Positions 42,590 to 45,955 of a stretch of 64,000 nt of DNA are shown here, piece by piece. The stretch comes from Chryseobacterium sp. MFBS3-17 (GTDB taxonomy: Bacteria > Bacteroidota > Bacteroidia > Flavobacteriales > Weeksellaceae), in the NCBI RefSeq assembly GCF_020687745.1, contig NZ_JAJEWK010000012.1, positions 372,001-436,000 on the forward strand, in the 5' to 3' direction. Below the pieces are notes generated by a model. It ran no database searches. It had not been told where the DNA came from and saw only the letters and a list, made by a program, of their open reading frames with translations. The translations under genes were made by a program, and so were the position numbers. How positions within the stretch are numbered: position 1 is the stretch's first letter; each line of letters begins with the position of its first letter.

Positions 42590-42617
42590 AAAAGCACTGA
42601 GAAATCGGTGCTTTTTT
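42590..42617. terminator. Terminator between convergent genes
   Basis: AAAAGCAC and GTGCTTTT pair around a 10-base loop, with TTTTTTT on the plus strand and an A run on the other side. It ends the lipoprotein pair and can serve the histidine-kinase gene whose stop is at 42617. Confidence 0.75.
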
Positions 42618-44497
42618 TAGTTATAGGGGATTTCCAGATGAACCAGGGTTCCGGTCTCTGATCCGTCTGTTTCCAGATCGGTAATCCTCAGTGAATAGTC
42701 TTCTGCATAAAGCCGTTCCAGGCGCTTGCGAGATATTTTAAAACCCAGAGATTCTTTCTTGTTCTGATTTCGTTCGGCCAGCCGGCTCGCTTCCCGCAGG
42801 CCAATGCCGTTGTCCCGGATCTCTATCATTGCTTTTCGGTCATTCTTCCGGGAAACGGTGATGCTCAGCTTTTTTTCTCCTTCCTTCAGTGCCAGGCCAT
42901 GCCACACCGCATTTTCTGCAAATACCTGAAGCAGAAAGGAGGGGATTTTTATGGTCTCGGTATCCAGTGCTTCATCTATTGTGATCGTGTACTGTATGGC
43001 GCCGCCAAACCGCATGTTTTCTATGGAAAGATAATTCTCTACATTCTCCAGCTCCTCTTTCAGATTGGTTTCCTTTTTCTGAATGCCGGTCAGAATATTC
43101 CGGAAGATCTTGGAGAATTTGTTCAGATAATATACCGATTGATGGGTGTCGTTTTTTACAATAAAGGCTTTTATGGAGTTCAGCGCATTAAAGATAAAAT
43201 GCGGATTCATCTGCAGATTCAGGATGTCCTGCTCCATCTGCAGGAGTTTTTTCTGCTGCTTCAGTTCTTTTTGACGGGTGTAGAAGTAATAGAGACCCGC
43301 CAGAAAGGCCAGCAGTATGATGGCCGCCGTATAGAGTTGGGCATTGGTGCTCATCTGGTGCGCCATCTGTTCCTGTTGCAGCTGCAGCGCATTGATTTCA
43401 TTTTTCCGCCGCTCCAGGGTGTACCGGTTTTTCAGATCGCTGATGCTCCGAAATGTGCTTTCATTGTGCAGCAATTCTTTTTCTTCGGCGTACTTTTTAT
43501 AATAGGCCAGCGCAGAGTCCAGCTGATCCTGTTCCTGGTAAAGTTGCGACAATAAATCATAGGCCTCAATTTGGGAAGAGGTAAATCCTTTTCTTTCGGC
43601 AATACTCAAACCATGCTTGATGGTTTGCTCTGCCCGGGGATTCTTTTGTTGCATCTGCAGCCATCCGGTGTGGATGTAGGAAATAGAGATATAAAATTCG
43701 TCCTGTATTTTCTCAGATTCTGCGATGGTATGGGCCAGGTAGGGTGCGGCTTCTGCCGTTTCGCCTTTTTTGAGATAAATGCCGCCAATGCTGTTGTTGC
43801 AGATGATTTTTCCTAGGGCAGAGTTCAGTTCATGGTTGTAGTTCAGGGATTGCCGGTAGTTATAAAGCGCACCGTCCAGGTCATTTTGCTTTTCATAAAT
43901 ACCGCCTATATTGTGATAATTAATGGCCAATCCCAGCAGGTTGTTGATTTTTTTCTCTATTTCCAGTGACCGCTGAAAATACGTCATGGCATCTTCCAGT
44001 TGGTTCATGGTCAGATATACATTACCCAGACTGTTGCACGAGATGGCAATATTCCGCAGGATCGTTTCACTGGGTTGCGAGATGCTTTCTGCCATTTCCA
44101 GGGCTTTCTGGTGGTATTCTATAGCAGGTAAAATTTCGTCTTTTCGACGGTACACCACACCCAGCAGATTGGTAGAGATAATGATTTGTTCCCGGTGGTT
44201 GATTCTGGTGGCCAGATTCAGGGCTTTGCGGTGATAGAAATCTGCTTTGGCATACGTGGATTTATCCCGGAAATAGCTGCCGAGTTGATTCAGAAAAAAT
44301 ACCTCGGCGACTTCATTGTGGTTTTTACGGCTCAGTTTCAGGTAGGTATTGATGGCTGCCGTGTCTGCAGATATGGAGCGGTAGGTACTGTCCAGCTGCG
44401 CAAAGGTAACCGACCGGTTCCGGGTAAGATCCGGAAGGCTTTGTCCGCTGAAGAGGGCAGACAGCAGGAAACATATCAGGCATGCACAACTTTTCAT
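42617..44497 (-). CDS. TPR-containing LytS-type sensor histidine kinase
   Basis: Sensor of 626 residues. Signal-like N-terminus (ACLICFLLSALFSGQS), then about seven tetratricopeptide repeats (residues 60-330, for example SLEIEKKINNLLGLAINYHN), a coiled coil, one membrane helix (TAAIILLAFLAGLYYFYT, near 385-402), and the His-kinase domain with phospho-acceptor in LQMNPHFIFNALNSIKAF. The ATPase has VFAENAVWHGLALKEG and IEIRDNGIGL. The TPR part should be periplasmic. It lies 3 bases after the cognate response-regulator gene. Confidence 0.93.
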   Translation of the reverse strand: MKSCACLICFLLSALFSGQSLPDLTRNRSVTFAQLDSTYRSISADTAAINTYLKLSRKNHNEVAEVFFLNQLGSYFRDKSTYAKADFYHRKALNLATRINHREQIIISTNLLGVVYRRKDEILPAIEYHQKALEMAESISQPSETILRNIAISCNSLGNVYLTMNQLEDAMTYFQRSLEIEKKINNLLGLAINYHNIGGIYEKQNDLDGALYNYRQSLNYNHELNSALGKIICNNSIGGIYLKKGETAEAAPYLAHTIAESEKIQDEFYISISYIHTGWLQMQQKNPRAEQTIKHGLSIAERKGFTSSQIEAYDLLSQLYQEQDQLDSALAYYKKYAEEKELLHNESTFRSISDLKNRYTLERRKNEINALQLQQEQMAHQMSTNAQLYTAAIILLAFLAGLYYFYTRQKELKQQKKLLQMEQDILNLQMNPHFIFNALNSIKAFIVKNDTHQSVYYLNKFSKIFRNILTGIQKKETNLKEELENVENYLSIENMRFGGAIQYTITIDEALDTETIKIPSFLLQVFAENAVWHGLALKEGEKKLSITVSRKNDRKAMIEIRDNGIGLREASRLAERNQNKKESLGFKISRKRLERLYAEDYSLRITDLETDGSETGTLVHLEIPYN

Positions 44498-44500
44498 GAC

Positions 44501-45232
44501 TCAGAACTGATCCAGAAAACTGGATTTTTTTTGGCGGGATACCGGAATCCGGCTGTGATTGGTGAGCACCACATATGATTCACTTTTCAGATATTCCTGT
44601 ACCTTATTCATATTGATGATGAAGGAATGATGCACTCGGAAGAAGTCTTCTGTGAGTTTTTCTTCCAGCTGTTTCAGTGGGGTAGACACCACGATTTTCT
44701 TTCCGTTTTCCAGAAATATAGTGGAGTAGTTGCCATCACTTTCGCAGTACAGAACTTCATCCGGCTTCAGAAACATCATTCTTCCGTCCGTACTGATGAT
44801 GATTTTCTTCTGGCCTTCATTTCTGGCATTGCGCGAAAGTTTTTCTTCTATATAATCAATGAGATCGTGCTCTTTTTTGAACTTTTTTATTTTGTCAATG
44901 CATTCCCTTACGCTGTCTGAATCAGCGGGCTTTTGCAGAAAATCCAGGCATTGCTGTTTGATGGCCGGCAGTGCATACTCATGATAGGCCGTGGTAATGA
45001 TAACAGCAAATTTGCGCTCCGGAAACTGCTGCAGGAAGTCAAATCCGCTCATTTCGGGCATTTCTACGTCTATGAAGACAGCGTCTACAAGGGTTCTGCT
45101 CAGAAACATCGTGGCTTTTTCTGCACTGGTAAATGCGTGCACCGCTATATGCTCTGGAATCAGATTTTCAAGTTCCCATTTCAGGCAGTCCAGGGCGTCC
45201 TGCTCATCGTCTAGTATTAATACAGTTATCAT
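44501..45232 (-). CDS. LytTR-family response regulator
   Basis: A 243-residue regulator with receiver domain (ILDDEQDALD at the start, phospho-aspartate in DAVFIDVEMPEMSGFDFLQQ, TTAYHEYALPA) and a LytTR DNA-binding domain (ISTDGRMMFLKPDEVLYCES, then LEEKLTEDFFRVHHSFIINM and SRIPVSRQKKSSFLDQF). LytTR domains bind short direct repeats such as ACAGTT-like boxes. TATATTTG at 45249-45256 (reverse strand) is its likely -7 box. The adjacent intergenic region has two such boxes, each ahead of a small promoter-hairpin unit. Confidence 0.93.
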   Translation of the reverse strand: MITVLILDDEQDALDCLKWELENLIPEHIAVHAFTSAEKATMFLSRTLVDAVFIDVEMPEMSGFDFLQQFPERKFAVIITTAYHEYALPAIKQQCLDFLQKPADSDSVRECIDKIKKFKKEHDLIDYIEEKLSRNARNEGQKKIIISTDGRMMFLKPDEVLYCESDGNYSTIFLENGKKIVVSTPLKQLEEKLTEDFFRVHHSFIINMNKVQEYLKSESYVVLTNHSRIPVSRQKKSSFLDQF

Positions 45233-45309: not shown

Positions 45310-45334
45310 ACCGGATAATGGTCCGGTGATTTTT
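45310..45334. terminator. Hairpin in the LytTR/corC intergenic region
   Basis: ACCGGA and TCCGGT pair around TAATGG and are followed by GATTTTT. No ORF of note precedes it; its role is unclear. The 748-base gap 45233-45980 otherwise holds the two units described next and no supported protein gene. Confidence 0.35.
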
Positions 45335-45487: not shown

Positions 45488-45626
45488 ACCGGTTATACAG
45501 TTTTTATGACCACTTGTCCATATTCGCTAGCGAAAATCTACTAAAGTCTCTACATTTGAGTATCAAAAAAACGAAAACTAATAACCATTTTTTCTCTCAA
45601 AAGTCACCTCGCCGGGTGGCTTTTCT
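45488..45626 (+). ncRNA. Candidate small-RNA unit 1
   Basis: Order of elements: ACCGGTTATACAGTTTTT (45488-45505), 63 bases from its start to the -7 box TACATTTG (45551-45558), the conserved string AAAACTAATAACC (45574-45586), a T/C-rich stretch, and a hairpin AAAAGTCACC/GGTGGCTTTT (45599-45624). The implied transcript is about 60 bases and holds no ORF. The same series of elements recurs at 45711-45840. The U tract after the hairpin is short. Confidence 0.5.
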
Positions 45627-45710
45627 GATGCTATAGCTGCTGATGAAAACTTTCAGCGCATTGTCTGCATTTATCTGATAACAGCGTTTATGCATCCTTG
45701 CGCAAATCCT

Positions 45711-45841
45711 ACCGGTTATACAGTTTTTTCTGCATTTTATCCAAAAACTTCTTTGGGAAACTGCAATCCTCCGTAAATTTAAATCATAAAACTAATAACC
45801 TTCTTTTTCTGCAGCCATTTCTCCGGGGAAATGGTTTTTTT
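45711..45841 (+). ncRNA. Candidate small-RNA unit 2
   Basis: Repeats the layout of unit 1: ACCGGTTATACAGTTTTT (45711-45728), again exactly 63 bases to a -7-like box TAAATTTA (45774-45781), AAAACTAATAACC (45788-45800), then hairpin CCATTTC/GAAATGG followed by a run of eight T. The implied transcript is about 53 bases. Sequence between the shared elements has diverged, which argues that the elements themselves are maintained. Confidence 0.55.
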
Positions 45842-45947
45842 TGAAAGTGCAGAAAGCAATGAATCCTTCTGTACAGGCTTTTGTTCATGCTTTTTACAGG
45901 GATCAGCATTTGCTGAAAAGAAAAAATGATGGTTCTGAAAATTTACA

Positions 45948-45955
45948 TACCTTTG
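45948..45955 (+). promoter_or_regulatory. -7 box of the corC-type gene
   Basis: TACCTTTG matches TAnnTTTG, 26 bases before the ATG at 45981. Confidence 0.55.

Follow-up and report, generated by a model that had tools for sequence, protein, structure and literature searches.

Twin promoter-leader units beside a LytTR two-component system in a relative of Chryseobacterium suggest small RNAs that arose from a lost operon's leader

It is established in the Firmicutes that two-component regulators, some of them of the LytTR type, drive regulatory RNAs, and VirR and FasA are both regulators of this type. So is AgrA (PMC4227749), and the RNAs in question are RNAIII (under AgrA), FasX (under FasA) and VR-RNA, VirT and VirU (under VirR) (PMC7602753). 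Published LytTR sites consist of 9-bp direct repeats with a 12-bp spacer, such as ACCACTTAT-12 bp-ACCGCTTAT, lying just upstream of the promoter (PMC6193735). For the Bacteroidota, a full-text literature search of partial coverage returned no report of a regulatory RNA driven by a LytTR regulator; the regulators of sRNAs in this phylum, and the DNA sites of many systems that pair a TPR kinase with a LytTR regulator, are hardly known.

Here we consider two sibling units, A and B, next to such a system in a window of 64,000 nucleotides (the whole stretch of DNA analysed) from Chryseobacterium sp. MFBS3-17, a Weeksellaceae relative of Chryseobacterium that falls outside the large genus group taken here as Chryseobacterium (Table 1). 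In our reading, these are probably LytTR-activated promoters that have been orphaned from their operon and now make two sibling noncoding RNAs of ~50-60 nt; the comparison with relatives suggests that such small regulatory RNAs were born from the leader of the lost operon.

Table 1. Features of the kinase/regulator pair and of units A and B, in window coordinates
Feature	Position	Strand	Basis or remark
TPR-containing histidine kinase, partner of the regulator (626 aa)	42617..44497	-	Pfam TPR_12 1e-24, His_kinase 3e-21, HATPase_c
LytTR response regulator (243 aa)	44501..45232	-	Pfam LytTR 4e-21, Response_reg 2e-16
Unit A, predicted LytTR operator ACCGGTTAT-N12-ACCACTTGT	45488..45517	+	9-mer direct repeats, 12-bp spacer
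Unit A, -7 box TACATTTG	45551..45558	+	57 bp after TATACA, as in orthologous promoters
Unit A, leader AAAACTAATAACCATTTTTTC	45574..45594	+	shared in full with the G003 unit and the operon leader of C. koreense
Unit A, terminator-like hairpin with an 11-pair stem and a short T run	45599..45624	+	-14.5 kcal/mol, z -2.9
Unit B, predicted LytTR operator ACCGGTTAT-N12-GCATTTTAT	45711..45740	+	9-mer direct repeats, 12-bp spacer
Unit B, -7 box TAAATTTA	45774..45781	+	57 bp after TATACA
Unit B, leader AAAACTAATAACC	45788..45800	+	exact 13-mer copy
Unit B, intrinsic terminator with U tract (hairpin 45813-45836)	45813..45842	+	fold and terminator scan

Predicted LytTR operators and promoter geometry

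The kinase and LytTR genes adjoin one another, and the protein encoded next to the units is a response regulator with a LytTR DNA-binding domain; its start codon (45232) lies 256 bases away in divergent orientation, as the original prediction had it. Between this start and unit A sits a short inverted repeat with perfectly matching arms, ACCGGATAATGGTCCGGT, and after it GATTTTT (45310-45327).

All the elements first read from the letters of the two units were confirmed at the positions given for them. The 18-mer ACCGGTTATACAGTTTTT occurs twice (45488 and 45711), with no third match in the window at up to three mismatches (shuffle mean 0.05); the -7-type boxes TACATTTG (45551) and TAAATTTA (45774) each lie 63 bases past its start; the 13-mer AAAACTAATAACC recurs at 45574 and 45788; hairpins follow both leaders (45599-45624 and 45813-45836); and the sequence between these elements has diverged, spacer A against spacer B giving z = 0.9. 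The distance from box to 13-mer is unequal, at 23 in A and 14 in B. What had to be replaced was the choice of ACAGTT-type words as the LytTR sites: given the published arrangement of 9-bp repeats and a 12-bp spacer, the 18-mer opens with the nine bases of the first half-site and ACAGTTTTT falls in the conserved spacer, the true repeats being ACCGGTTAT together with ACCACTTGT or GCATTTTAT, 21 bp apart. Both units carry two 9-bp direct repeats about 12 bp from each other, upstream of boxes to be read against TAnnTTTG, the Bacteroidota -7 consensus (PMC9723704).

Six of six promoters from five genomes (A, B, and those of the sister species G003, Chryseobacterium sp. R2A-55, C. koreense and G169) place TRTACA 57 bp before the box, an invariant distance even though most spacers between lineages cannot be aligned. 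Upstream of LytTR orthologues in the Bacteroidota, TACA word pairs on the divergent strand peak at a 21-bp period (11 loci, against five or fewer for each of the other distances from 8 to 45), and in more distant orthologues of the phylum half-sites lie ~35, 56 and 77 bp before TAnnTTTG-type boxes; a fixed position of the repeats upstream of the core promoter is kept beside orthologous regulators. The earlier claim of LytTR control gains from these canonical repeats of 21-bp period, from the fixed distance to the -7 box in orthologues and from the co-occurrence with LytTR genes, and we regard control of both units by LytTR, with binding of the regulator as a prediction, as strongly supported. 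In the mechanism we posit, stimulation of the kinase would activate both units: LytTR, once phosphorylated, would occupy the pair of 9-bp direct repeats that lie ~35 and 56 bp ahead of the -7 box, and would bring RNA polymerase to promoters that show no obvious -33 element.

The exact operator-promoter pattern occurs in the genome at the two unit sites only. Four relaxed pattern matches were considered as further LytTR targets and rejected (two inside genes, one with its -7 box inside an ORF, one intergenic and weak), and another relaxed operator search of the whole genome gave sites not above the reversed control, so weaker regulon members could stay hidden.

Could the operators act as DNA rather than as parts of promoters? 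The divergent LytTR gene has them in its upstream region, and autoregulation is common among LytTR systems (PMC6193735); duplicated operators might mainly titrate LytTR or autoregulate its gene, with the short RNAs as by-products. We consider this very improbable, since in all close orthologues the operator stands at a fixed distance from a -7 box on the + strand, an arrangement that fits activation of that strand.

An operon displaced from its promoter and leader

In R2A-55, C. koreense and G169, three other Weeksellaceae, operator, box and leader are those of the units and run into an ORF for a secreted protein of ~156 aa; after ACTAATAACC comes ATTTTTTC in R2A-55 and C. koreense, and AATTTTTT in G169. 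The G003 homologue of this protein has a T9SS sorting domain, and the second protein of the operon is of the endosialidase-chaperone type. Gene order in R2A-55 and C. koreense is the ~156-aa ORF, a 638-aa gene and a CNNM gene; in the sister G003, the two-gene operon is inverted relative to these (L059 4125-5824) and has its own LytTR-like repeats, in 21-bp phase ~119, 98 and 56 bp before its box. In G003 the promoter-leader beside the LytTR gene is closed by a perfect hairpin with eight T. The window genome lacks both operon proteins and has two terminated units.

Comparison across these genomes demonstrates the displacement of the operon, the operator geometry and the units' linkage with the regulator; that the operon came first and the terminated units afterwards, we infer. 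The ancestral promoter-leader would have driven a divergent operon for the T9SS-sorted and the endosialidase-chaperone-type protein, and this operon would have flipped in the sister species and been lost from the window genome, with the promoter-leader staying in place, gaining a terminator and coming to stand in two copies in the window genome. This would be a rare case in which the steps from leader to standalone RNA are traceable, from relatives that keep the operon, through the sister, where it is inverted and one unit is terminated, to the window genome, which has two such units and no operon.

The distribution of the units is narrow. The combined element pattern occurs twice in the window genome, where the reversed pattern does not occur at all; among 246 genomes of the family, it otherwise recurs in the sister G003, with one copy and not two, and the only further match, in G192, lies inside a coding sequence and was rejected as a unit. 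Among the same-genus genomes (a sample of four, the window genome included), the two with the LytTR gene are the only ones with units; from the other two the whole block of kinase, regulator and units is missing, atpG directly abutting the CNNM gene. Close orthologues of LytTR (67-79% identical) were found only in G003 (79%), G084 (69%) and G173 (67%). The LytTR orthologue of G169 is apparently split across two reading frames (L078, L089), which may reflect a frameshift in the gene or an error of sequencing.

Between the window genome and G003, synonymous sites are saturated (pS 0.81-0.84), and kinase and regulator are intact; with LytTR 79% and the kinase 67% identical, such saturation indicates that the system has been maintained, and it makes mere recent descent an unlikely reason for the A and G003 leaders to agree over 21 bases. 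These observations bear directly on the main rival to our reading, in which the units would be relics, that is, decaying promoter-leader remains of the lost secreted-protein operon, whose hairpin merely insulates the neighbouring gene and whose RNA is functionless. Such decay would agree with the relatives, where the same promoter-leader drives an operon missing from the window genome, and with unit B, whose second repeat and -7 box are weak, weaker than those of A. We nevertheless think it unlikely: operator, spacing, -7 box, leader and hairpin persist in spite of saturated synonymous sites, the two copies share an identical 18-mer amid unalignable spacers, the kinase and regulator are undamaged, and the sister has a terminated unit in addition to a separate copy of the operon with phased repeats of its own.

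Terminated leaders and a tag shared with mRNAs

The predicted output of each unit, a short terminated transcript without an ORF, is supported by the sequence: no ATG lies between leader and hairpin, no ATG-started tiny ORF is found in the units, and each has its own promoter and an intrinsic terminator, weak in the case of A. The tail of hairpin B is a run of eight T, whereas that of A is only TTTTCT, a weak U tract that a T-run terminator scan missed. RNA fold z-scores are -2.9 for A, -1.0 for B (only slightly better than shuffles) and -6.3 for the sister unit in G003; the stems of these three terminated units are quite different in sequence, and in all three the hairpin comes right after the leader. 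Rfam returned no match to the units above the gathering score, only chance matches. The units sit between divergent genes and, because the neighbours are divergent, no other mRNA ends there, so none needs a terminator at this place. Transcription would cross a conserved leader of 15-30 nt and stop at the hairpin, leaving two noncoding RNAs of ~50-60 nt; we infer this transcription, as we do LytTR binding and a role of the RNAs in trans.

Hairpins behind a leader may also be conditional. Unit B is directed at the gene of a CNNM/CorC-type transporter, ~140 bp away with no further terminator found on the way, and a signal might let transcription from B, or from A and B, enter it. Such attenuation seems improbable to us, as the CNNM gene comes with a TAnnTTTG-type box of its own (TACCTTTG at 45948), G001 and G002 keep this gene without any unit, two genes separate it from the unit in G003, and the RNA folds contain no antiterminator pairing.

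Returning to standalone RNAs, we must ask what their shared 5' part could do. The R2A-55 leader is identical to that of unit A from ACTAATAACC onward, and the leader is kept in G003, yet it is also found in mRNA leaders, and the hairpin sequences differ. The original prediction proposed AAAACTAATAACC as the seed of the two sRNAs; as a seed unique to them we rejected it, given that the same leader precedes the start codon in several genes, including the operon driven by the orthologous promoter in relatives. The four genomes of the genus hold 13 copies, against one for the reversed control, most of them just before a start codon and three of them the units; of the four exact copies in the window genome, two are the units and two directly precede a start codon. 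Near-copies followed by ATG were not enriched over the reversed pattern. The 13-mer is thus at least partly an mRNA leader element; since many mRNAs have this very leader ahead of their start codon, a role as seed is doubtful, and conservation of a 5' leader common to mRNAs need not mean sRNA function.

The same 13-mer also opens a multicopy family of structured RNAs in the genus group taken here as Chryseobacterium (g20), of which 30 distinct copies were aligned. They stand in tandem beside TetR-type genes (named from sequence alone), with a palindrome AGACAC...GTGTCT over a TATATTTG promoter, a 5' AAACTAATAACCATTTTATAT, a conserved CTAAGGTAAAA segment and a terminator stem that keeps its pairing through changes of sequence; no Rfam family covers them. 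Loci include L046 (3516, 3849, +), L047 (494, 2043, 3424, 3796, 4147, +), L048, L051-L054, L058, L064 and others. Conserved pairs of ACTAATAACC units in Chryseobacterium-like genomes were rejected as orthologues of A and B, as they belong to this distinct TetR-linked family with its other promoter. The tag is thus common to unrelated short RNAs and mRNAs; it may base-pair with targets, serve as a binding site for a protein or help initiation.

Two further observations concern similar arrangements elsewhere. In all four genomes of the genus, AAAACTAATAACCATGAAAACTCAAATTAAACATGAGAATC is conserved after a terminator-like hairpin (L005, L002, L004, L006, position 1501), a possible small ORF or leader; and in a different genus, L015 (~1480-1590, G041:C22) has a TTAACTTTG box, a ACTAATAACCATTTTCTTC leader and a strong terminator-like hairpin.

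Perhaps the two sets of RNAs belong to one larger picture. A two-component promoter would have been deprived of its operon, fitted with a terminator and duplicated, its local output changing from a secreted protein to noncoding RNAs, and the 5' tag AAACTAATAACCATTTT, which also opens the multicopy TetR-linked RNAs of Chryseobacterium-like genomes, would mark short RNAs that mimic mRNA leaders throughout the clade, either to seed pairing or to act as decoys for a factor that binds leaders. We offer this extension only tentatively and hold it to be doubtful as a whole; if true, it would define a clade-wide class of leader-mimicking short RNAs recognisable by their tag.

Comparison with known systems

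For one LytTR subfamily, the comparison makes the geometry of operator and promoter explicit, in a form that can be used to map regulons. The LytTR systems described in PMC6193735 likewise place 9-bp repeats, separated by a 12-bp spacer, directly ahead of the core promoter; those systems drive protein operons, whereas here a kinase/response-regulator pair is found with noncoding units. Nearer in phylogeny are the sRNAs of F. psychrophilum, for example Rfp18, which come from the same bacterial class, have TAnnTTTG promoters and are experimentally mapped; the passages of PMC9723704 considered here, compared by description, mention no LytTR-linked, leader-derived twin units among them.

Several sibling sRNAs under one response regulator are known from OmrA/OmrB and from the csRNAs of CiaR (PMC7602753), and OmrA and OmrB, like our units, have a common 5' part; their regulator families differ from LytTR, and the shared 5' part of the window units is found in mRNAs as well. 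The closest parallels are RNAIII, FasX and VR-RNA, in which a response regulator of the LytTR kind activates the promoters of noncoding RNAs; in the case of RNAIII and FasX, the RNA gene adjoins its own two-component system, as the units do in the window. What sets the present locus apart from all three is another phylum, a TPR-containing His_kinase, units with a predicted length of 50-60 nt, and a promoter that is shared with the mRNA leader of relatives.
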